Shown here: positions 2,383 to 20,385 of the stretch, piece by piece | How the letters are laid out: each line of letters starts with the position of its first letter | How positions within the stretch are numbered: position 1 is the stretch's first letter | Assembly: GCF_030406605.1 (NCBI RefSeq) | Contig: NZ_CP129104.1 | Location: 3,615,617-3,679,616, forward strand | Reading direction: 5' to 3' | Length of the DNA stretch: 64,000 bases | Origin: Curtobacterium sp. 458 | GTDB lineage: Bacteria > Actinomycetota > Actinomycetes > Actinomycetales > Microbacteriaceae | The notes under the pieces: generated by a model | Told to the model about the DNA's origin: nothing | Databases searched by the model: none | What the model saw: the letters and a program-made list of their open reading frames with translations, nothing else | Program-made: the position numbers and the translations under genes

Positions 2383-3663
<1,281 letters not shown>

Positions 3664-8730: not shown

Positions 8731-8804
8731 GGGGATGTAGCTCAATGGTAGAGCCCCAGTCTTCCAAACTGGCTACGCGGGTTCGATTCCCGTCATCCCC
8801 TCCA
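8731..8804 (+). tRNA. tRNA-Gly (anticodon TCC), CCA encoded
   Basis: The acceptor stem is GGGGATG/CATCCCC, with a D arm GCTCAATGGTAGAGC, an anticodon stem CCAGT/ACTGG with loop CTTCCAA, and a T arm CGGGTTCGATTCCCG. The anticodon TCC reads glycine; CCA is encoded (8802-8804). Its 3' end is repeated four more times immediately downstream. Confidence 0.97.
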
Positions 8805-8808
8805 CTTC

Positions 8809-9040
8809 CGCAACCGGCACTGCGCCGATGCTCGATCCCCGTCATCCCCTCCACTACGGAGCACCCCGTCTCGAACCGGCACTGCGCCGATGCTCGATTC
8901 CCGTCATCCCCTCCACCACGGAGCACCCCGTCTCGAACCGGCACTGCGCCGATGCTCGATTCCCGTCATCCCCTCCACTACGGAGCACCCCGTCTCGAAC
9001 CGGCACTGCGCCGATGCTCGACTCCCGTCGCCCCCTCCGA
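8809..9040 (+). repeat. 62-bp tandem repeat carrying copies of the tRNA-Gly 3' end
   Basis: Four units (8809-8870, 8871-8932, 8933-8994, 8995-about 9040, the last partial). Units 2 and 3 are nearly identical. Each carries about 24 nt matching the 3' end of the tRNA-Gly gene, from the T loop through the acceptor strand to CCA (for example CTCGATTCCCGTCATCCCC). The remaining 38 nt (ACGGAGCACCCCGTCTCGAA...CCGATG) do not match the tRNA. No 5' tRNA half is present, so these are not extra tRNA genes. Confidence 0.9.
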
Positions 9041-10521: not shown

Positions 10522-11481
10522 TCACTGGTACGACGCGGCCTGCCCGTAGAGCACCTGCGTCAACGACGACACGTAGGGCGAGACGTCACCGTCCGGCAGG
10601 TTGTACGTCATGAAGACGCCGTAGCCGTCTGCCTTCGTCCGTTGTGCCAGCGAGACGGCCGCGGACTGCGACGTGTTCTGGATGTCGACGGCGGCCGCGG
10701 ACAGGCGGTCCTTGCCGAGCCCCGGGATCGACGGCGCCGAGTAGGTGCCGTAGTACGGGTTCCAGGCGTAGTCGAGCTGCGAGCCGATCGTCGAGCTCGA
10801 CGAGGCCAGGGCGGAGGACGCCGGGCCGATGTCGTAGAACGAGATGAGCTTGCCGGGCATGTCGGCGCGGAGGGCGCTGATGAGCCACCCGATCGACTGC
10901 TGGTTCGGCTGCGGGGTGCCGTTCACCCCGTAGTCGGAGTACTCGTCGTCGAGGTCCACGCCGTCGAGCCCGTACTTCGCCACGGTCGCCGAGACCTGGG
11001 CCGCGAAGTCGGCAGCAGCCGCCTGCGTCGGGAAGTTCGCGATGCCGGCGCCCTGGTGGTTGCCGAGGATCGACAGCGAGACCTTGATGCCCTTCGCCTG
11101 CAGCGGCCGGATCTGGGTCGCGGCGTCGTCGAGGGTGCGCTGGACGTTCTCGTTGTTGTACAGGACGGCCTTCGACCCGTCCCAGTTGATGTTCGCGGCG
11201 AAGATGATCGCGACGTCGAACGCGTTCGCGCCGTTCGCCAGGGTGTACCGGCCGACGTTCGACAGCTGGTCGTTGTTCACCTCGACGTAGGCGATGCTGG
11301 TCGGCCCGCTCTTCGTGGGCGTCGAGTGCGGCTGTGCTCCGTGCCCGACGCCGTGGTGGGCGCCGACGCCGTGTGACGAACCAGTGGGCGACGGCGCTGC
11401 CGACGCGGCGGAGGGCACGAGCGGTGCCGCCACCATCGCGGCGATGGCCGCCACGATCCCGAACTTCATGGACTTCTTCAT
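10522..11481 (-). CDS. Secreted endo-beta-N-acetylglucosaminidase (GH18, Endo H type)
   Basis: A 319-residue exported enzyme predicted to cut between the two core GlcNAc residues of high-mannose N-glycans and release the glycan from glycoprotein. A signal peptide covers about residues 1-28 (MKKSMKFGIVAAIAAM...). A His/Gly/Pro-rich linker (SHGVGAHHGVGHGAQPH) follows. The TIM barrel starts at about residue 62 (TSIAYVEVNNDQL). The GH18 active-site strand reads DGVDLDDEYSDYG, matching the Endo H form of DxxDxDxE, with the catalytic Glu at its end. The conserved neighbour NGTPQPNQQS supports Endo H rather than chitinase. The ATG at 11481 has GAGGAG 6 nt upstream. Its position beside GH38, a GH-A enzyme and an importer supports a glycan-harvesting role. 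Confidence 0.9.
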   Translation of the reverse strand: MKKSMKFGIVAAIAAMVAAPLVPSAASAAPSPTGSSHGVGAHHGVGHGAQPHSTPTKSGPTSIAYVEVNNDQLSNVGRYTLANGANAFDVAIIFAANINWDGSKAVLYNNENVQRTLDDAATQIRPLQAKGIKVSLSILGNHQGAGIANFPTQAAAADFAAQVSATVAKYGLDGVDLDDEYSDYGVNGTPQPNQQSIGWLISALRADMPGKLISFYDIGPASSALASSSSTIGSQLDYAWNPYYGTYSAPSIPGLGKDRLSAAAVDIQNTSQSAAVSLAQRTKADGYGVFMTYNLPDGDVSPYVSSLTQVLYGQAASYQ

Positions 11482-11550
11482 GACACTCCTCTTCGAGTGA
11501 CGAACCGACCGGCGGATGCCGACCGGGGGCCGGCGGCTGCCGACCGGGGA

Positions 11551-11583
11551 CCGCCGCCGGGGCACCCGAAGCCCCGGCGGCGG
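11551..11583 (-). terminator. Hairpin between the GH38 and Endo-H-like genes
   Basis: 13-bp perfect stem CCGCCGCCGGGGC (11551-11563) with 11571-11583 around a 7-nt loop, 5 nt after the GH38 stop. It suggests that the GH18 gene has its own or attenuated transcription. Confidence 0.65.
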
Positions 11584-11587
11584 AGTC

Positions 11588-14500
11588 TCAGGCGCGCGGG
11601 TACCGGAAGGTGCGCACCTCGTAGGCGTCGACCGGGAACGCGACGACGCCGACGCTGACCGAGGCCGTACCCGGCAGGGCCGCGTCGGGCTCCTCGAGCA
11701 GCGTGACCTCGGCCGGAGCGGACCAGGGGCCGTCCACCGCGATGCCGCCGGTGCCGCGACGGCCGGACGGCTCGTACACGCGCACGATCAGGTCACCGGA
11801 ACGGTCGTCGGCGAGCTTGACGCTCGACAGGACGACGTCGCCGGACACCTGCACGAGCGGCTCGAACCCGTGCGCACCCCTGACGGTCCGTGCGCCCGCG
11901 TTCATGACGACGCCGGCCTCCGTGGCTCCGAGCTGGTCGGTCCCGATGACGATGCCGTACCGGTGGGTCTGCTCGCCCTGGTCGGTCTCGGGGTCGGGGA
12001 ACCGCGGTGCCCGGAGCAGCGAGAGCCGGACGGTGGTGGTGACGTGGCCGTCGACCGCGTCGCGCGTGGTGTCGAACCCGTGGATCGAGTCGTTCACGAG
12101 CGCCACTCCGAACCCCGGCTCCTCGACGAGCACGTACCGGTGCATCGAGGTCTCGAACTTCGCGGCCTCCCACGAGGTGTTCGTGTGCGTCACCCGCTTC
12201 TGTGCGCCGAACTGCGTCTCGGCGACGGTGTGCTCGGCGCGGACGTCGAGGGGGAACGCGACCTTGAGGAACTTCTCGGTCTCGTGCCAGTCCGTCACCT
12301 GCGCGAACTCCAGCGTGCGGGACCCGGGCGCGAGCGTGATCTCCTGTGTCACGGTCGAATCGCCGAAGGCGCGCGACACCACGACCCGTGCGACGCCGCG
12401 GTCGTCGACCGATGCGTCGATCGTCTCGACCGCGACGAGGTCCTCGACCCGGTTGCGGTAGTACCGGTCGACGTCCCAGGCGTCCCACATGTTCGGGAAG
12501 TCCTGGTGCAGCTGCAGCAGGTTCGCGACCTGGCCGGGCGCGATCGCCTCGCGTCCGGTGGTGAGGTCGACCGCGCTCGTCACGAGGCCACGCGCGTCGA
12601 CGACCACGCGGACGAGGTCGTTCGTCAGCACGTACCCGCCGTCCTGTGCGGTCAGCGACACCGGGGTCGCCGCCGGCACGTCGGTCGCCAGGAGGGCGCC
12701 CTGCGCGGGTGCGCCGGCCTGGAGGAACGGGGCGGGGTTCACGACGACGGTCGCGTCACCGGCACCCGTCAGTGCCGACAGGGCGTCGGCGATGACCGCT
12801 TCGAGGCGTGCGGCCGTCTCGGCGTACTTCGCCACCGCTTCGCGGTGCACCCAGGCGATCGAGGTGCCCGGGAGGATGTCGTGGAACTGCTGCAGGAGGA
12901 CCTGCTGCCAGAGGGCGTCGAGCTCGTCGTACGGGTACGCGAAGTCGGTGCGTGCGGCCGCGGTCGCCGCCCACAGCTCCGCCTCGATCAGCAGCTGCTC
13001 GCTCCGGCGGTTGCCCTGCTTCGTCTGGTGCTGGCTCGTGAGCGTCGCGCGGTGCAGCTCGAGGTAGAGCTCCCCCACCCACACCGGCGGGTTCGGCAGC
13101 TCGGCCTTCGCCCGGTCGAAGAACGTGTCCGGGTGCTCCCAGCGGACCTTGGCGCTGCCCTCGAGGTCGGCGAGGCGTGCGGCCGTGCCGGTCATCTCGC
13201 GGGTCGTGCCACCACCGCCGTCACCCCAGCCGACGGGTGCGATCGACCCGGTGGCGAGGCGGTTCTCGCGGAACTGCCGTGAGGCCTTCGCCACCTCTTC
13301 CCCGGACAGCCGGGAGTTGTACGTGTCCATCGACGGGAAGTGCGAGAACACCCGCGACCCGTCGATGCCCTCCCAGAGGAACGTGTGGTGCGGGAACTTG
13401 TTGACCTGGTTCCACGAGATCTTCTGCGTGAAGAACCACTCGAAGCCCGCGCGGCGCATGAGCTGCGGCAGCGCCGGCGAGTACCCGAAGCTGTCCGGCA
13501 GCCAGACGCCCTTCGGTCGGATGCCGAACTCCCGCTCGAAGAACCGCTGTCCCTGCGAGAACTGCCGCACGATGCTCTCGCCCGTGGGCATCACCGTGTC
13601 TGACTCGACCCACATGCCGCCGAGCGGCAGGAACCGGCCGGCCTCGACCGCGGCCTGCACCCGGGCGTACACCTCGGGACGGTGCTCCTTGATCCAGGCG
13701 TACTGCTGCGCGCTCGACATGCCGTAGAGGAAGTCGTCGGTCTGGTCGATGAGCTCGGTCATCGTCGAGGTGGTGCGAGCGACCTTCCGGATCGTCTCGC
13801 GCACCGGCCACAGCCAGGCGGAGTCGATGTGGGCGTGCCCGACCGCCGAGATCGTGTGCGCCGAGGCGTCGGCCGGTGCGGCGAGGACGTCGGCGAGCGC
13901 ACCGCGGGCGTCGGCGGCGGTCTCCGCGATGTGCTGCAGGTCGAGTCGGTCGAGGGCGTCGTCCAGCGCCTGCAGGATCCGCATCCGCCGGGGTCCCTCG
14001 GGCAGCTGCGCCTGGAGCTCGAGGAGCACCTCGAGGTCGAGCGCGAGCTCGTGCACGTCGGACTCGAAGACCGCGAGGTCCATCCGACGCGACGTGTAGA
14101 GGCGCTTCGGGGACGAGGTCTCGATGTCGCCCTCGTGCGTGACGAGGAAGGGGTGGTAGTCGAGCAGGACCGGGTTCGACGCGGCCTCGACGAAGAGCTC
14201 GACCGTCTCACCGCCCGCTGCTTCCTCGGCGATGAGCACCCACTGGTTCCGCGGGTTGATCGACTTCACCGGGGTGCCGTCGGCGAGGTACACGAGCCCC
14301 TCGCACTGGAAGCCCGGCATGTTCTTGTCGAACCCGAGGTCGATCACGGCCTCGACGCGCCGTCCGGCCCAGTCCGCCGGCACGGTCCCGGTCAGCCGGA
14401 ACCACGTCGTGCCCCACGCAGCACCCCACGTCGTGCCGACCTCGTACGGCTCGAAGTCGAGCGCGAGCCCGGCCGCCGGCGGGATCGGCTCACCCGGGAG

Positions 14501-14611
14501 TTCGTGCCAGGCGGTGTCGAGCGGCGTCGCCGTCGCGTGCACCGCGGGCAGGATGCGCTCGTCGAGGACCCGTCGGGCGCGTCCGGTGGTGAGGGGGATG
14601 TCGTCGTGCAT
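11588..14611 (-). CDS. Cytoplasmic alpha-mannosidase, GH38
   Basis: A 1007-residue retaining alpha-mannosidase without signal peptide, so it should act on imported oligosaccharides. An N-terminal beta domain (1-250) precedes the catalytic domain. The first metal-binding motif GHAHIDSAWLWP supplies His261 and Asp263; Asp373 in WLPDSFGYS is the expected nucleophile and zinc ligand. QQFHDILPGTS, near residue 590, carries the fourth ligand. C-terminal beta-sandwich domains follow (GREAIAPGQVANLLQLHQDFPN...). Length and order match bacterial GH38 enzymes of about 1000 residues. It belongs to the minus-strand sugar cluster, 117 nt behind the GH-A gene. Mannose linkage specificity cannot be read from the sequence. 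Confidence 0.95.
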   Translation of the reverse strand: MHDDIPLTTGRARRVLDERILPAVHATATPLDTAWHELPGEPIPPAAGLALDFEPYEVGTTWGAAWGTTWFRLTGTVPADWAGRRVEAVIDLGFDKNMPGFQCEGLVYLADGTPVKSINPRNQWVLIAEEAAGGETVELFVEAASNPVLLDYHPFLVTHEGDIETSSPKRLYTSRRMDLAVFESDVHELALDLEVLLELQAQLPEGPRRMRILQALDDALDRLDLQHIAETAADARGALADVLAAPADASAHTISAVGHAHIDSAWLWPVRETIRKVARTTSTMTELIDQTDDFLYGMSSAQQYAWIKEHRPEVYARVQAAVEAGRFLPLGGMWVESDTVMPTGESIVRQFSQGQRFFEREFGIRPKGVWLPDSFGYSPALPQLMRRAGFEWFFTQKISWNQVNKFPHHTFLWEGIDGSRVFSHFPSMDTYNSRLSGEEVAKASRQFRENRLATGSIAPVGWGDGGGGTTREMTGTAARLADLEGSAKVRWEHPDTFFDRAKAELPNPPVWVGELYLELHRATLTSQHQTKQGNRRSEQLLIEAELWAATAAARTDFAYPYDELDALWQQVLLQQFHDILPGTSIAWVHREAVAKYAETAARLEAVIADALSALTGAGDATVVVNPAPFLQAGAPAQGALLATDVPAATPVSLTAQDGGYVLTNDLVRVVVDARGLVTSAVDLTTGREAIAPGQVANLLQLHQDFPNMWDAWDVDRYYRNRVEDLVAVETIDASVDDRGVARVVVSRAFGDSTVTQEITLAPGSRTLEFAQVTDWHETEKFLKVAFPLDVRAEHTVAETQFGAQKRVTHTNTSWEAAKFETSMHRYVLVEEPGFGVALVNDSIHGFDTTRDAVDGHVTTTVRLSLLRAPRFPDPETDQGEQTHRYGIVIGTDQLGATEAGVVMNAGARTVRGAHGFEPLVQVSGDVVLSSVKLADDRSGDLIVRVYEPSGRRGTGGIAVDGPWSAPAEVTLLEEPDAALPGTASVSVGVVAFPVDAYEVRTFRYPRA

Positions 14612-14688
14612 GGGGTCCTTCCGGGAGGGAGGGCCGGCGTCGCTGCCGGCAGCAGGGCGGATGGTCGGGACTGGCGGTGGTGAGTGCT

Positions 14689-14736
14689 GCCGAGGGTCAG
14701 GGCAGCCGAGGGTCAGGGCAGCCGAGGGTCAGGGCA
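14689..14736. repeat. Three perfect 16-bp tandem copies at the end of the GH-A gene
   Basis: GCCGAGGGTCAGGGCA occurs at 14689-14704, 14705-14720 and 14721-14736 without mismatch. The copy nearest the gene contains its stop codon (14729-14731). Confidence 0.95.
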
Positions 14737-16111
14737 TGGTCGCGGGGTGCGCGACGGTCAGTGCGGTGCCGTCGAGGTCCGTCGGCACCTCCACGATGCT
14801 CGTGACCCCCCGTGCGGTGCGGAGCGTCTCGTCGGCGAGTCGGGAACGCAGGACCACCTGCGGCCCACGGCCGTCCTCCGACGACTCGGCGAGTGCGAGC
14901 CACGCGGCGGCGAACCGGCCACCGGGCGCGCAGTCGGCTCGGGTGCCGTAGCGGGGCGACCCGTCGGCCAGCACGTCGTCGAGGACGAGCGCGGTCGACG
15001 GCGGTGCCACCGGTGCGGCGATCCCCTTGCGGGCGAGGGCGGCGAAGGCCTCCCCCGCCGGCTTGAGCGCGCCGTCGTTGGTGAACAGGCCGAGGTCGTA
15101 CTCGAGCTCGGGGAAGTCCGCGAGCGACCGGGAGACGTCGTGCGAGCACCACCACGTGACGCCGAGGACGTCCTGCGCGCCGGCGACGTGGCGGATCGTC
15201 TGCTCCGTGAACGCCGCGGCGTCCGCGGGTGGGACGACGTTCGTCGGCGCGCCGACCTCCTGCAACCAGTTCGGCCGACGGGGCTCCCGGTTCCAGGCCG
15301 CCGCGAGCTGCAGCAGGTACTCCCCGTGCCGGACCGACCCGGCGCCGAGCGGGCCGTGCAGCGCCGCCGTCCCGTTGAACACCCACGAGTGCGTGACCGT
15401 GGCGTCGCCGTGGTCCGCCGCGTGCTCCGGGCCGAAGGGCTGTGCGTCGTCGTACCAGGCCGCGTCGTACTGCGCGACGGTGACCAGCGGACCCGGACGC
15501 GACCCGGCGAGGGCGGAGGCCGACGGGTCGGAGCCGAGCCGCGCCTCCAGGCCGGACGCACCGGACGCGCCGGACGCACCGGACGCGAGCCCGGAACGCG
15601 CAGCCGCGACCATCGCCGCGGCCCAGGCGTGCCCCTGCTCCGCCGTGGTGTCGTGCGGGGCCGGGTGCGGGGCGTGCGCGAACTGGTTGACCTCGTTGCC
15701 GATCGAGATGCCGAGCAGGTTCGGCTGGTCCGCGACCGCTGCGGCGAGCGCCTCGACGTACGCGGCGGTCGATGCGACGACGTCCGGGTCGGTGAACATG
15801 TTCCGTCGGTGCCAGCTGTCGAGCCAGGACGGCACGAAGTCGAAGCTCGACAGGTGGCCCTGCAACGCGTCGACGTTCACGTCGAGGCCGAACGACCCCG
15901 CGATGTCGACGACGGTCGCGACGTCGCGCAGCGCCGAGGCCCGGATGAGCGTCCGGTTCGGCTGCACGACCGGCCAGAGCGGGAAGATCCGCACGTGGTC
16001 CGCGCCGAGTGACGCGATCGCCTCGAGGTCGCGCGCGGTGTCCGACGGCGAGAAGTCGAGCCAGGAGTGGAACCAGCCGACGGCCGGTGTGTAGTTGACG
16101 CCGAAGCGCAT
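14729..16111 (-). CDS. Clan GH-A glycoside hydrolase, GH5-like (candidate beta-mannosidase)
   Basis: A 460-residue TIM-barrel enzyme with no signal peptide. The two clan GH-A carboxylates are visible 145 residues apart: acid/base Glu140 in LLGISIGNEVNQF and nucleophile Glu285 in NWLQEVGAP. Barrel strands such as GADHVRIFPLWP fit GH5. In the cytoplasm beside an alpha-mannosidase and Endo-H-like enzyme, cleaving the Man-beta-1,4-GlcNAc left after trimming is the natural role, as for GH5_18 enzymes in bifidobacterial N-glycan loci; this is an inference. Its ATG overlaps the permease stop (TGATG). Residues 172-200 (GASGASGASGLEAR) are a low-complexity insertion that contains a copy of the dispersed repeat at 15541-15555. 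Other GH5 beta-glycosidase specificities remain possible. Confidence 0.8.
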   Translation of the reverse strand: MRFGVNYTPAVGWFHSWLDFSPSDTARDLEAIASLGADHVRIFPLWPVVQPNRTLIRASALRDVATVVDIAGSFGLDVNVDALQGHLSSFDFVPSWLDSWHRRNMFTDPDVVASTAAYVEALAAAVADQPNLLGISIGNEVNQFAHAPHPAPHDTTAEQGHAWAAAMVAAARSGLASGASGASGASGLEARLGSDPSASALAGSRPGPLVTVAQYDAAWYDDAQPFGPEHAADHGDATVTHSWVFNGTAALHGPLGAGSVRHGEYLLQLAAAWNREPRRPNWLQEVGAPTNVVPPADAAAFTEQTIRHVAGAQDVLGVTWWCSHDVSRSLADFPELEYDLGLFTNDGALKPAGEAFAALARKGIAAPVAPPSTALVLDDVLADGSPRYGTRADCAPGGRFAAAWLALAESSEDGRGPQVVLRSRLADETLRTARGVTSIVEVPTDLDGTALTVAHPATMP

Positions 16112-17088
16112 CAGCCCTTCACCCCGCCCTCTTCGACGCCCTTGAAGAAGAAGCGCTGCAGCACCGCGAAGATCACCGCGATCGGGATGAACGCGATCAT
16201 CGTGCCGGCCGCGATCATGCGCTGGTCGGTGGCGAACGTGCCCTGGAGGTACTGCAGACCGACCGTGAGCGTCAGGTTCTGCGGCGACTGCAGCACGATG
16301 AGCGGCCAGAGGAAGTCGTCCCACGCCCCGATGAACGAGAAGATCGCGATCACGGCGATGGTGCCCTGCACGGCGGGCAGCGAGATGTACCGCAGGCGCT
16401 GCATCGCGTTCGCACCATCCATCACCGCGGCCTGGTCGATCTCCTCGGGGATCTGCCGGAACGCGTTGAACATGAGCAGCACGTTGAGCGCCGCGATCAT
16501 GCCGGGCAGCGCGACACCGACGAGGTTGTCGGCGAGGCCGAGGTCCTTCACGGTGACGAACTGGCTGATGATCGTGGCCTCGCCCGGCAGCACGAGGGTG
16601 GCGAGGAAGAGCCCGAGGACGGCCTTCCGGAAGCGCCACTGCAGGCGAGCGAGGGCGAAGCCGGCGAGCGTCGCGAACACGATGTTGCCGAACACGTCGA
16701 TCGCGGCGACGAGCAGCGAGTTGCCGATGTACCGCCAGACCGGGATCGCGGCCGCCACCTTGAGGTAGTTCTCGATGGTCGGCTCGGTCGGGATGAACGA
16801 CGGGTTCGCGGTGTAGATGTCCTCGCCGGCGCCCTTGAGCGAGGTCGAGAGCTGCCAGAGGAACGGGCCGATCGTGATGAAGAGGACGACGATCAGCAGG
16901 ACGTAGCGGACCACCTTCTCGCGGGTGGACATGACGCCCCACACCTGGCGGCGGCGGCGCCGTCCATCGCGTCCGTCCGGCCTGGAGGCGCGGTCCGGTT
17001 CCGTCGCGCCGGTCACGTCCGGCGCGGGGGCCGCCACGCCGGCGGCGCCTCCGATGACCGGCTCGGTCGTGTTGGTCGTGTTCGTCAC
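16111..17088 (-). CDS. ABC sugar transporter permease (MalG type)
   Basis: A 325-residue inner-membrane subunit with six predicted helices and the binding-protein-dependent permease signature EEIDQAAVMDGANAMQR (EAA loop) that docks the ATPase. The GTG at 17088 overlaps the upstream permease stop (GTGA) and gives a 52-residue hydrophilic N-terminus before the first helix. That extension contains a dispersed-repeat copy (16979-16993), read here as DRASRPDG. An internal ATG at 16932 (MSTREKVVRYV) would give the usual 273 residues, so the true start is uncertain. It pairs with the MalF-type permease. No ATPase gene is in the cluster, so a shared MsiK-like ATPase encoded elsewhere is expected. Confidence 0.93.
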   Translation of the reverse strand: MTNTTNTTEPVIGGAAGVAAPAPDVTGATEPDRASRPDGRDGRRRRRQVWGVMSTREKVVRYVLLIVVLFITIGPFLWQLSTSLKGAGEDIYTANPSFIPTEPTIENYLKVAAAIPVWRYIGNSLLVAAIDVFGNIVFATLAGFALARLQWRFRKAVLGLFLATLVLPGEATIISQFVTVKDLGLADNLVGVALPGMIAALNVLLMFNAFRQIPEEIDQAAVMDGANAMQRLRYISLPAVQGTIAVIAIFSFIGAWDDFLWPLIVLQSPQNLTLTVGLQYLQGTFATDQRMIAAGTMIAFIPIAVIFAVLQRFFFKGVEEGGVKG

Positions 17089-17957
17089 TTGTCGGCCTTG
17101 CTGTTCATGCGGGCGAGGGCGAGCATCGGGATGAGCGTCACGACGAAGAGCAGGAGGCTCAGGGCGGACGCGTAGCCGAGGTTGCCGGTGAACCCGCGGG
17201 CGTACTGCTGGATGAGCATGACGAGCGAGTTGTCCTGCCCGCCGGGCCCACCCGTGCCGTTGGTGAGGATGTAGAGCTCGCTGAACACCCGGAGCGCGCT
17301 GACGCACACCAGGATGCCGACGAGCGTCATCGTCCCGCGGACCCCGGGCATCGTGACCGACCAGAACCGCCGCACGGCACCGGCGCCGTCGAGCGCCGCG
17401 GCCTCGTGCAGGTCCTTGCCGACGTTCCCGAGGGCCGCGAGGAAGATGATCATGTAGTAGCCGAGGCCCTTCCAGACCGTCAGGCTGATCGCGCTGATGA
17501 GCAGCAGCCACCGGTCGGTGAGGAACGGGATGCCCGCGCCTCCGAGGGCCTTCACGATCTCGTTGATGACCCCGCGGTCGTCGAGGATCCAGGTCCAGAT
17601 GAGGCCGACGACGACCGCGGAGGCGATCACGGGCGTGTAGTACGCCGTGCGGAAGAACGCGATGCCGGGGAGCTTCTGCTGCACGAGCACCGCGATGAGC
17701 AGCGGCAGCACGGTCAGCAGCGGCAGGCAGACCGCCATGTAGATGACGCTGTTGAGGAGCGCCTCCCACACCTGCGGATCGCCGAGCAGGGTCCTGAAGT
17801 TCGCGAGACCCACCCACTGGCTCACGCCCCCGAGGGGGCTGGCGTTGGTGAACGACAGCCGGACGGTGTTGATCGACGGCCAGAGGCTGAACGCGAGCAG
17901 CCAGACGAGTGCCGGCAGGACGAGCAGCCAGGGCGTGAACCAGCGGTTGGCGCGCAT
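17085..17957 (-). CDS. ABC sugar transporter permease (MalF type)
   Basis: A 290-residue permease with six predicted membrane helices, beginning MRANRWFTPWLLVLPALVW. The EAA loop reads LHEAAALDGAGAVRRFWSVT. It is sandwiched between the binding protein and the second permease with overlapping stop and start codons on both sides, so the three are translationally coupled and should be made in fixed ratio. The predicted cargo is an oligosaccharide; the cluster enzymes suggest mannose-containing N-glycan fragments. Confidence 0.95.
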   Translation of the reverse strand: MRANRWFTPWLLVLPALVWLLAFSLWPSINTVRLSFTNASPLGGVSQWVGLANFRTLLGDPQVWEALLNSVIYMAVCLPLLTVLPLLIAVLVQQKLPGIAFFRTAYYTPVIASAVVVGLIWTWILDDRGVINEIVKALGGAGIPFLTDRWLLLISAISLTVWKGLGYYMIIFLAALGNVGKDLHEAAALDGAGAVRRFWSVTMPGVRGTMTLVGILVCVSALRVFSELYILTNGTGGPGGQDNSLVMLIQQYARGFTGNLGYASALSLLLFVVTLIPMLALARMNSKADK

Positions 17958-19246
17958 CAGCCGTTGGCCAGGAGGGTGTTCATCTTGGTCTGCGCCGTCT
18001 GGAGGGCCTTCTCCGGCGAGACCTGGCCCTTCATGGCGAGGGCGATCTGCTGGTCGAGGAAGTCCGTCATCGCGGAGTTCGCCTCGACCGGGTTGAGCAC
18101 CTTCGCCTGCTTGAGCGCCTCGTTCGCGAGGACGCGCGCCTTGCCGTTCACGGTGCCGTCGTCCTTCGAGAAGTACGGGTCGGACTGCGACGACGTGGTC
18201 GAGGGGAAGATGTTCACCAGGTGCGCGAACGCCTCCTGGTTCTTCGCGTTCGTCATGTACTGCGCGAACGCCTCGGCCGTGGCGAGGTGCTTCGACTTCG
18301 ACGACACGGACAGGCCCTGCACGTAGAGCGGCGGGGTGTCGAGCGCGGGGCTCACCGTGACGTTGCCCTTGAGCGACGGGTTGTTCTTGACCATGTCGGA
18401 CAGGGCCGTCGCGCCGCCGGTGGTCCAGGCGACCTTCTGCTGGGTGAACAGCGTCGAGTTGCCCAGGTAGTCGCTGTTCAGGACGTTCGAGGGCATGTAG
18501 CCGTCCTGGTACGCGGTCTTGTAGCGGCCGATGAGGTCGGCGGCCTTCGACGAGTCGGCGAAGGTGAACTTCGTGCCGTCGCTGTTGAGGACCTTGACGC
18601 CGGCGAGGGTGAAGTCACCGAGGCCGGGCTTGCGGCTCATCAGGTAGTCGTCGGGGCACTTCTCGTGCATCGTCTTCGCCTGCGTGAAGAGGTCGTCGGT
18701 GGTCTTCGGCGGGTTGTCCGCGTCGAGGCCGCACTTGTCGAACATCGTCGTGTTCCAGTAGTCGACGTCGGTGTTGAGGTACCAGGGGTAGCCGTACGTG
18801 CCGTCGAGCCCCTTGTACTCGTACGAGTCGAGCGCACCGGAGACGTAGGTGCTCGCGAGCTTGCTGTCGTCCTTCGACACGTCCTGCAGGAACCCGCGCT
18901 TGGCGAGCGGCAGGGCGATGTCCGGCGGCAGGTTGATGACGTCCGGCAGCGTGTTCGAGGACGCCTGGCTGAGCACCTTGTCCGCGTAGCCGTCGCCGGG
19001 CTGGTCCTGCAGCTTGACCTTCGCGTCGGGGTGCTCCTTCTCGAAGCCCTTGATGACCCCGTTGAGGTAGTCCGTGTAGGTCGGCGTCAGCGCCCAGGTC
19101 TGGAGCGTGATCGTGCCATCGATCTTCCCGCTGCTGCCGGTGGCCGCGCCGCCGCCGCTCGAGCAACCGGTCAGGGCGAGTGCTGCCGCTGCAGCCGTGG
19201 CGAGCAGGGCGACGGCGCCGCCCCGCTTGCGTGTCGTGGTCCTCAT
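17957..19246 (-). CDS. Sugar ABC transporter substrate-binding lipoprotein
   Basis: A 429-residue extracellular solute-binding protein (family 1). The first 28 residues form a lipoprotein signal ending in the lipobox LTGC, so the mature protein is anchored by a lipidated cysteine. The two-lobe fold reads TITLQTWALTPTYTDYLNGV, LPDVINLPP, TYGYPWYLNTDVDYWN and WTTGGATALSDM. The many aromatic residues in the presumed cleft suit a carbohydrate ligand. The ATG at 19246 has AAGGAG about 10 nt upstream; the longer frame is not plausible. It is the first gene of the cluster and is preceded by a LacI-type operator, so sugar induction is expected. Confidence 0.94.
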   Translation of the reverse strand: MRTTTRKRGGAVALLATAAAAALALTGCSSGGGAATGSSGKIDGTITLQTWALTPTYTDYLNGVIKGFEKEHPDAKVKLQDQPGDGYADKVLSQASSNTLPDVINLPPDIALPLAKRGFLQDVSKDDSKLASTYVSGALDSYEYKGLDGTYGYPWYLNTDVDYWNTTMFDKCGLDADNPPKTTDDLFTQAKTMHEKCPDDYLMSRKPGLGDFTLAGVKVLNSDGTKFTFADSSKAADLIGRYKTAYQDGYMPSNVLNSDYLGNSTLFTQQKVAWTTGGATALSDMVKNNPSLKGNVTVSPALDTPPLYVQGLSVSSKSKHLATAEAFAQYMTNAKNQEAFAHLVNIFPSTTSSQSDPYFSKDDGTVNGKARVLANEALKQAKVLNPVEANSAMTDFLDQQIALAMKGQVSPEKALQTAQTKMNTLLANG

Positions 19247-19272
19247 GGGATGTGACTCCTTCGTCATCGTGC

Positions 19273-19284
19273 TCAAACGGTTCA
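19273..19284. promoter_or_regulatory. LacI-family operator upstream of the binding-protein gene
   Basis: TCAAACGGTTCA fits the NNAANCGNTTNN pattern bound by LacI/GalR regulators, with central CG. It lies 27 nt from the binding-protein start codon, in the region shared with the divergent lacI-type gene. Confidence 0.65.
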
Positions 19285-19324
19285 GTTGCTGTCGCCGAAC
19301 CAGCGCGTGGCAGCGACGATGCAC

Positions 19325-19342
19325 GACTAAAACGCTATAGTC
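19325..19342. promoter_or_regulatory. Second LacI-type operator overlapping the regulator's -10 box
   Basis: GACTAAAACGCTATAGTC is an 18-bp imperfect palindrome (14 of 18 symmetric) centred on CG. It contains the regulator's -10 TATAGT (19336-19341), 6 nt before its GTG, which points to autorepression. With the site at 19273 it could form a repression loop. Confidence 0.6.
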
Positions 19343-19347
19343 AAGCC

Positions 19348-20385
19348 GTGGCCCCGAAACGCCGGACGACGATCGCCGACATCGCAGCGCGTGCCGGCGT
19401 GTCCATCAGCGCGGTCTCCTTCGCGCTCAACGACCGTCCCGGGGTCTCCCCCGAGACCCGGCTCCGGGTGCAGCAGATCGCCCGCGAGCTCGACTGGCAG
19501 CCGCACACCGCTGCGCGCGCACTCGGTGGCGCGAAGGCGGGGTCGATCGGCTTCGTGCTGAACCGCCCCGCGCGCACACTCGGCACCGAGTCGTTCTTCG
19601 GCGACCTCATCTCCGGCATCCAGCTCGGGCTCGCCGGCAGCCACGTCGGCATGAACCTCCTCGTCGCCCGTGACGCGGACGAGGAACTGGCGACCTACCG
19701 CGACTGGTGGCGCGGGCACCGGGTCGACGGCGTCATCGTCATCGACCCGCGCCGCGACGACCCGCGGCTGGCCCTGCTCGCCGAGCTCGGGATGCCGACC
19801 GTCGTCGTGGGGTCGCACCCGTCCCCCGCGGGCTCGGCCCCGTCGGTCTGGATCGACGACTCCGACGCGACCGACACCGTCCTGCGCTACCTGCTCGCGC
19901 TCGGACACCGGCGGATCGCGCACGTCGCCGGGCGTCCGGAGTACGAGCACACCGCGATGCGGATCGAGCGGGTGCGGTCCTTCGCCGTCGCCGGCGACCT
20001 CGAGGACGCGGTGTCCGTGCCGACCGACTACTCGGCCGAGGCGGGCGCCCGGGCCACCCGGGAGCTCCTGTCCCGCCGGGACCGCCCGACCGCGATCGTC
20101 TACGACAACGACGTCCTCGCCGTCGCCGGGCTCGGGGTGGCGAGCGAGATGGGCGTGCACGTCCCCGGCGACGTGTCGATCGTGTCGTTCGACGACTCCG
20201 CGATGGTCCGGCTCGTGCGGCCGGCGATCACCTCGCTCACCCGCGACACGGTCGAGCTCGGGCAGCGTGCGGCCACCCTGCTCCGCGCCCAGATCGACGC
20301 ACCGGGACCCCTGCCGTCCCAGCCCGGACCGGCCCTGACGCTCAGTGTGCGCGAGTCCACGGGGACGGTCCGCGACGCACGGTGA
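19348..20385 (+). CDS. LacI-family transcriptional regulator of the glycan cluster
   Basis: A 345-residue repressor. The N-terminal HTH reads TTIADIAARAGVSISAVSFA with the hinge helix TAARALGG near residue 55. The periplasmic-binding-protein-like effector domain follows (GSIGFVLNRP, DGVIVIDPRRDDPRL, VSIVSFDDSAMVRLVRPAITSL). It starts at a GTG 6 nt after a TATAGT box, so it is probably leaderless. It is divergent from the sugar importer, and two LacI-type operators lie between them. The inducer is likely a mannose-containing saccharide, inferred from the neighbours only. Confidence 0.94.
   Translation: MAPKRRTTIADIAARAGVSISAVSFALNDRPGVSPETRLRVQQIARELDWQPHTAARALGGAKAGSIGFVLNRPARTLGTESFFGDLISGIQLGLAGSHVGMNLLVARDADEELATYRDWWRGHRVDGVIVIDPRRDDPRLALLAELGMPTVVVGSHPSPAGSAPSVWIDDSDATDTVLRYLLALGHRRIAHVAGRPEYEHTAMRIERVRSFAVAGDLEDAVSVPTDYSAEAGARATRELLSRRDRPTAIVYDNDVLAVAGLGVASEMGVHVPGDVSIVSFDDSAMVRLVRPAITSLTRDTVELGQRAATLLRAQIDAPGPLPSQPGPALTLSVRESTGTVRDAR

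Follow-up and report, generated by a model that had tools for sequence, protein, structure and literature searches.

We analyzed a window of 64,000 nucleotides from Curtobacterium sp. 458 (NCBI RefSeq assembly GCF_030406605.1, contig NZ_CP129104.1, positions 3,615,617 to 3,679,616), the final 64 kb of a complete 3.68-Mb chromosome. The window contains a seven-gene cluster that an earlier reading of the same DNA (the original prediction) had described as a locus for harvesting high-mannose N-glycans. The genus Curtobacterium is largely plant-associated. Six genes on the minus strand encode a lipoprotein extracellular sugar-binding protein (SBP), two ATP-binding cassette (ABC) sugar permeases, a GH5_18-like beta-mannosidase, a GH38 alpha-mannosidase and a secreted, Endo H-type GH18 endo-beta-N-acetylglucosaminidase. 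A divergent LacI-family regulator is encoded on the plus strand. The boundaries previously assigned to the seven genes all hold. The locus thus brings together GH5_18, GH38, a sugar ABC importer and a regulator, the core of an N-glycan utilization system, and it is highly probable that the cluster is an operon under LacI control through which the cell feeds on high-mannose N-glycans. Signal peptides, the lipobox and the resulting compartments were judged by eye.

The release enzyme (positions 10522–11481, minus strand, 319 amino acids) scores 399.5 bits on the NCBI Endo H equivalog model (NF045482, cut-off 300). Its best solved structure is Endo H (PDB 1edt, 332 bits, residues 54–316). The sequence DGVDLDDEY at residues 173–181 aligns to DGVDFDDEY of 1edt, and the Asp and Glu of this motif are the catalytic residues of GH18 enzymes. 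Laboratories have long used Endo H as a reagent for trimming glycoproteins. The window enzyme is predicted to cleave high-mannose N-glycans between the two N-acetylglucosamine (GlcNAc) residues. An alternative is that this GH18 protein serves chitin or peptidoglycan turnover and does not act on N-glycans. GH18 is a chitinase family, Pfam gives the protein only the family name, and a Curtobacterium genome paper lists the GH18 genes of the genus under chitin in its Table 4, with the term ‘N-glycan’ absent from the main text (PMC8565777). Yet the ChiD chitinase model reaches 20.7 bits against a cut-off of 750, the best chitinase chain among solved structures scores 36 bits, and the gene shares an operon or an operator with alpha- and beta-mannosidase genes. 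We consider this alternative extremely improbable, and a chitinase is ruled out on model and structure scores. The original prediction had called the enzyme Endo H-like, in agreement with the NF045482 score, and the grouping with chitinases that it named as the refuting outcome is contradicted by a ChiD score far under the cut-off. A His-rich linker (residues ~30–55) follows the signal peptide; it is also found in the Endo H of one Microbacteriaceae locus discussed below (L145) and not in that of another (L149).

The GH5_18-like gene (positions 14729–16111, minus strand) encodes a cytoplasmic-type protein of 460 amino acids. No Pfam or NCBIfam family exceeds its cut-off for this protein, and its assignment comes from scores against solved sequences. 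Highest are ScGH5_18 (433 and 430 bits, best entry 7lr7), followed by 9y4v (‘Glycosyl hydrolase’, 389 bits), BlGH5_18/BlMan5B (334–347 bits) and the exo-beta-1,4-mannosidase 6gvb (327 bits). Nine solved sequences fall between 433 and 327 bits, eight of them named GH5_18, BlMan5B or exo-beta-1,4-mannosidase, and the next match after a wide gap is a mannanase at 65 bits. Glu140 (in GNE, acid/base) and Glu285 (in WLQE, nucleophile) lie where they had been placed and align with the catalytic positions of ScGH5_18, whose entry 7lr8 carries Ala at the GNE position. These scores identify the protein as GH5_18-like; a grouping with unrelated GH5 subfamilies, named beforehand as a refuting result, was not seen among the solved sequences compared. 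The enzyme is predicted to split Man-beta-1,4-GlcNAc. Its nearest named relatives are Curtobacterium, with C. luteum first at 91% identity. Two repeats touch this gene. A perfect 16-bp unit is present three times at 14689–14736, across the gene end and into the gap that follows; the other, a 9/18-bp repeat at 15551–15587 inside the gene, encodes a GASGAS-type loop.

The GH38 gene (positions 11588–14611, minus strand) encodes a 1007-amino-acid, cytoplasmic-type enzyme in which no signal peptide was seen. Its N-terminal, middle and C-terminal Pfam domains all score above their cut-offs. The nearest structures are 7ufr–7ufu (822 to 690 bits, 7ufr best at 822), labelled ‘Alpha-mannosidase’, which we take to be the Bifidobacterium longum Man38 enzymes. 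Outside the window, the genome encodes one GH92 and two further GH38 proteins.

The importer genes follow one another closely on the minus strand. Permease 2 (MalG/UgpE type, positions 16111–17088, Pfam accession PF00528), whose stop overlaps the GH5_18 start, lies next to permease 1 (MalF/UgpA type, positions 17085–17957, PF00528), and beyond permease 1 comes the SBP (positions 17957–19246, PF01547 and PF13416), which has a lipobox, LTGC. The regulator (positions 19348–20385, plus strand) matches PF00356 and PF13377. Permeases, SBP and LacI protein match broad families only and stay below equivalog cut-offs (NF008210 for permease 2, NF007852 for permease 1), and NCBIfam models give no substrate clue for the SBP. 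The proposed compartment order of release outside, import and trimming inside fits what is seen by eye: Endo H has a signal-peptide-like start and the SBP a lipobox, and GH38 and GH5_18 lack such a start.

Two operator-like sites had been described beside the divergent regulator, and both are present in the gap between the LacI and SBP genes. O1 (positions 19325–19344, minus strand, TTGACTATAGCGTTTTAGTC) is a near-palindrome, TTGACTATAGCGcTTTAGTC, that contains a -35-like TTGACT by eye. O2 (positions 19272–19285, minus strand) is a LacI-type near-palindrome that reads CTGAACCGTTTGAG in the window and takes the perfect form CTGAACCGGTTCAG in many Curtobacterium loci. The exact O2 pattern occurs in 26 of 144 loci, namely the window genome and 25 of the loci L003–L030 (Curtobacterium and one other Microbacteriaceae, L018), and looser forms occur in L146, L148, L151 and L153. 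The LacI protein would bind O1.

We compared gene order in the best 80 of 440 confirmed loci, ranked by their GH5_18 protein (29 Microbacteriaceae, 7 Actinoplanes-type and 44 Streptomycetaceae loci). The order LacI/SBP/permease/permease/GH5_18/GH38 is kept in most of them; some loci are truncated where their contigs end, and seven differ (L029, L042, L043, L053, L061, L072 and L074). The arrangement recurs in Curtobacterium. Of the 29 Microbacteriaceae loci, 26 have Endo H no more than 10 kb from the core; none of the 51 others, some of them truncated at contig ends, has it at that distance. In the three Microbacteriaceae exceptions, Endo H is elsewhere in the genome (L023, L025) or about 15 kb away (L029, on the stretch L152). 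A GH92 alpha-mannosidase gene adjoins Endo H in L153 and L154 and is one gene away in L152.

Endo H and the core also go together across genomes. Among 66 same-genus genomes, 55 encode Endo H (54 over the cut-off, plus G010, where the gene is in pieces), and an orthologous GH5_18 is found in exactly those 55. The raw GH5_18 count is 58, the extra three being a paralogue at 53–54% identity (G011, G047) and a weak match (G050). In 51 of the 55 genomes, Endo H lies 3184–3742 bp downstream of GH5_18 on the same strand; in G024, G043 and G044 it stands apart from the core, and in G065 the two genes are on separate contigs. Fisher values computed for this co-occurrence take no account of how closely the genomes are related. 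In a wider sample of 299 family genomes, Endo H scores above its cut-off in 10, of which 6 are same-genus; every one of the 10 encodes GH5_18 at E ≤ 1e-40. Ten of the 66 genomes have a second GH5_18-like gene (53–55% identity over the N-terminal half). The one in G034 (L156, 8191–9393) adjoins another LacI gene, with no O1 or GH38 in the 16 kb of DNA examined.

We scanned the 66 genomes for O1 with a degenerate 20-base pattern, allowing up to two mismatches; the pattern was drawn after the unlinked Endo H promoters had been read. The scan returned 55 core sites, three sites at unlinked Endo H promoters and five two-mismatch strays, and a reversed-pattern control gave four hits across all 66 genomes. 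The occurrence of O1 is far above chance. Core sites are found in the same 55 genomes as GH5_18 and Endo H, at 3201–3375 bp before GH5_18 in 54 of them; in G065, O1 and GH5_18 are on different contigs. In the three genomes with unlinked Endo H (G024, G043, G044), the sole additional O1 site is at the Endo H promoter. The window genome showed no wider O1 regulon: a search at up to three mismatches gave one perfect site, found on both strands, and one three-mismatch site, compared with one control hit per strand. Beyond the genus, the motif is recognizable in Leifsonia and Actinoplanes-type loci, and the variant CTAAAGCGCATTAG occurs in 10 of the 16 Streptomycetaceae loci scanned.

We examined nine Microbacteriaceae Endo H genes outside the usual operon position (L027, L038, L145, L147, L149, L151, L152, L153 and L154), and eight of them have their own O1-like site upstream. 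Six of these eight sites match the core motif with at most two mismatches, A or T being allowed at two positions. The sites in L153 and L154 were chosen by eye against the core operators of the same loci; in L154, for example, the Endo H site reads TTGACTTACCCGATTAAGTC and the core operator TTGACTTACCCGGTTTAGTC. The nine genes are not independent: L145 is nearly identical to L147, and two others (L027, L038) come from Leifsonia. That separated copies have an operator of their own speaks more strongly than any other new finding for Endo H as a member of the regulon regardless of its position.

Within the operon, a hairpin with a 13-bp stem and no U-run occupies the gap between GH38 and Endo H (positions 11551–11583, minus strand). 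Among 25 relatives with Endo H downstream, a perfect stem of 13 or 14 bp is found in 14, a shorter one in three and none in eight. Eight distinct versions of the 13-bp stem show both-side changes at 6 of 13 pairs; the stems were picked as perfect, so full pairing follows by construction and only the covariation counts. We saw no O1 in this gap by eye, and a consensus scan found neither a promoter nor a U-tailed terminator in it. Endo H is therefore probably read through the hairpin, perhaps at another expression level. The hairpin may act as a leaky terminator or RNA stabilizer, possibly tuning secreted against cytoplasmic enzymes.

The position of the release enzyme is filled differently in Streptomycetaceae. 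GH85 follows GH5_18 in 25 of the 44 loci and stands before a GH38 gene in 20 of those 25; among the 19 loci without GH85, L049, L055 and L057 end soon after GH5_18. Pfam names the GH85 of L047, which has a twin-arginine-like start by eye, and the others were found by likeness to the L047 protein. Within the DNA examined, Endo H lies within 10 kb of the core in none of the 44 loci. Thirty-five Streptomycetaceae genomes (nine of the 44 loci were left out) encode nine Streptomyces Endo H genes, of the same NF045482 family as the window enzyme. None of the nine has an O1-type site in the 600 bp upstream at up to three mismatches, and recruitment of Endo H into the O1 regulon thus looks like a Microbacteriaceae trait in this sample. 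Of these genomes, 14 have no GH85 in the locus, and 7 of the 14 encode Endo H; among the 21 whose locus has GH85, 2 do (Fisher p 0.015). This difference is no more than suggestive, because the species are related and the test was chosen after the data had been seen. Seven of the nine Streptomyces Endo H genes (L193–L198 and L200) share the stretch GCTTTCGAACAGGTCGGGCGCCG just upstream, exact in five and with small changes in L194 and L197, which is a candidate for a different control site.

Bifidobacteria release N-glycans by GH85, and GH85 defines the bifidobacterial-type locus. The window genome has no GH85 match and does not carry such a locus. The original prediction had contrasted the window with the GH85 of bifidobacterial loci; this contrast is not confined to bifidobacteria, since 25 of the 44 Streptomycetaceae loci likewise combine the core with GH85. 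Within Microbacteriaceae, the alternative is seen in L157 (6057–13520), where a LacI gene is flanked by GH85 and GH5_18, each preceded by an O1-like site. L157 also carries a GH84-type (NAGidase) beta-N-acetylglucosaminidase.

These comparisons bear on whether the cluster is a general mannoside or beta-mannan oligosaccharide operon with Endo H as a chance passenger. The broad family matches of the permeases, SBP and LacI protein would suit such an operon, as would the other genera that keep the core without an adjoining Endo H. Endo H and the orthologous core GH5_18, however, occur in the same 55 of 66 genomes, unlinked Endo H genes carry a core-like operator, and a second family of N-glycan endoglycosidases, GH85, follows GH5_18 in 25 of the 44 Streptomycetaceae loci. 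We judge the passenger explanation highly unlikely. Chance adjacency as such is ruled out by the co-occurrence together with the operator at unlinked copies. With the 55-genome co-occurrence, its own operators and the contrast to Streptomyces, Endo H looks like a regulon member and not a chance neighbor.

An N-glycan feeding operon would work as follows. Outside the cell, secreted Endo H would cut high-mannose glycoproteins at the chitobiose core to give Man(n)GlcNAc, which the lipoprotein SBP and the two permeases would import, probably with a housekeeping ATPase. In the cytoplasm, GH38 would remove the alpha-linked mannoses and the GH5_18-like enzyme would split the remaining Man-beta-1,4-GlcNAc into mannose and GlcNAc. 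The LacI repressor on O1, and perhaps O2, would silence the operon as long as no N-glycan fragment is present. The natural source is plausibly glycoproteins of plants or fungi. The main purpose might instead be deglycosylation of host or competitor glycoproteins in colonization or immune evasion, with feeding secondary; the enzyme looks secreted, and the plant association of the genus, together with the isolation sources given in PMC8565777, would suit this role. The rest of the Endo H operon and regulon consists of import and catabolic genes, which argues for feeding, and we hold a primarily deglycosylating function to be very improbable.

Several observations weigh against the N-glycan feeding operon or its Endo H component. 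Among the seven genes, to which the search was confined, none encodes an ATPase or an enzyme of mannose or GlcNAc catabolism. A consensus promoter scan calls no promoter at O1 despite the TTGACT, and the hairpin may limit read-through into Endo H. Of the separated Endo H genes, that in L152 shows only partial likeness to the core operator and that in L153 has a site with weak likeness to its own core operator. The nine Streptomyces Endo H genes lack the operator in the 600 bp upstream. Nine of the 19 GH5_18-bearing genomes in the family sample have no Endo H match that reaches the cut-off, so the core is not dependent on this enzyme. Finally, GimA and GimB of Actinoplanes share a clade with BlGH5_18 and act in sporangium opening (PMC12691653), so that clade alone is no proof of a GH5_18 substrate.

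As judged from sequence comparison, Endo H would occupy an exchangeable release-enzyme slot under one LacI-type switch, making the window locus a distinct variant built of known parts. A broader proposal, to which we give an even chance, is that Endo H has been drawn, in Microbacteriaceae, into a strict regulon of two units (the core operon and Endo H, with five weak strays in 66 genomes) whose role is to remove high-mannose N-glycans from the glycoproteins of plants or fungi, living or dying. As Endo H and GH85 would be interchangeable in the release slot, with the operator still recognizable, the switch, not the enzyme, would then define the system. For Endo H, the feeding operon predicts both a natural role and a genetic switch in a genus that is mostly plant-associated, and the common operator offers a direct route to finding and testing the regulon in other genomes. 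It also suggests plant and fungal glycoproteins as a carbon source for these bacteria that is worth measuring.

Actinobacterial N-glycan core loci that combine GH5_18 with an ABC importer, GH38 and a LacI-type regulator were reportedly described by Higgins et al. in 2021. The Streptomyces loci examined here share the core order of the window and differ from it in the release enzyme, as set out above. A closer parallel is the Cutibacterium acnes locus proposed for N-glycans, which combines GH38, GH5_18, GH20 and ABC genes with a GH18 predicted endoglycosidase (PMC6160142). That GH18 protein is EndoT-like (41.7% to 4AC1), is listed without a secretion signal and is missing in phylotypes IB, II and III, whereas the window enzyme is an Endo H with a signal-peptide-like start; GH20 is absent from the seven window genes. 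The B. longum operon likewise uses GH38 mannosidases for high-mannose trimming, with three GH38 genes and a GH125 (reviewed in PMC10154615), compared with the single GH38 of the window locus.

The distinct architecture named in the original prediction is supported for Endo H with its shared operator; a GH38/GH5_18/ABC locus with another GH18 enzyme had already been proposed in C. acnes (PMC6160142). Literature searches with partial coverage found no paper on Endo H and GH18 in Curtobacterium and none on high-mannose N-glycans in this genus. The GH5_18/GH38/ABC core is thus already published, and the version with Endo H is undescribed within the reach of these searches.

Elsewhere in the window, a tRNA-Gly (8731–8804) is directly followed by a 62-bp tandem repeat of 3.7 copies (8812–9038), whose unit appears by eye to hold a tRNA 3′ end.

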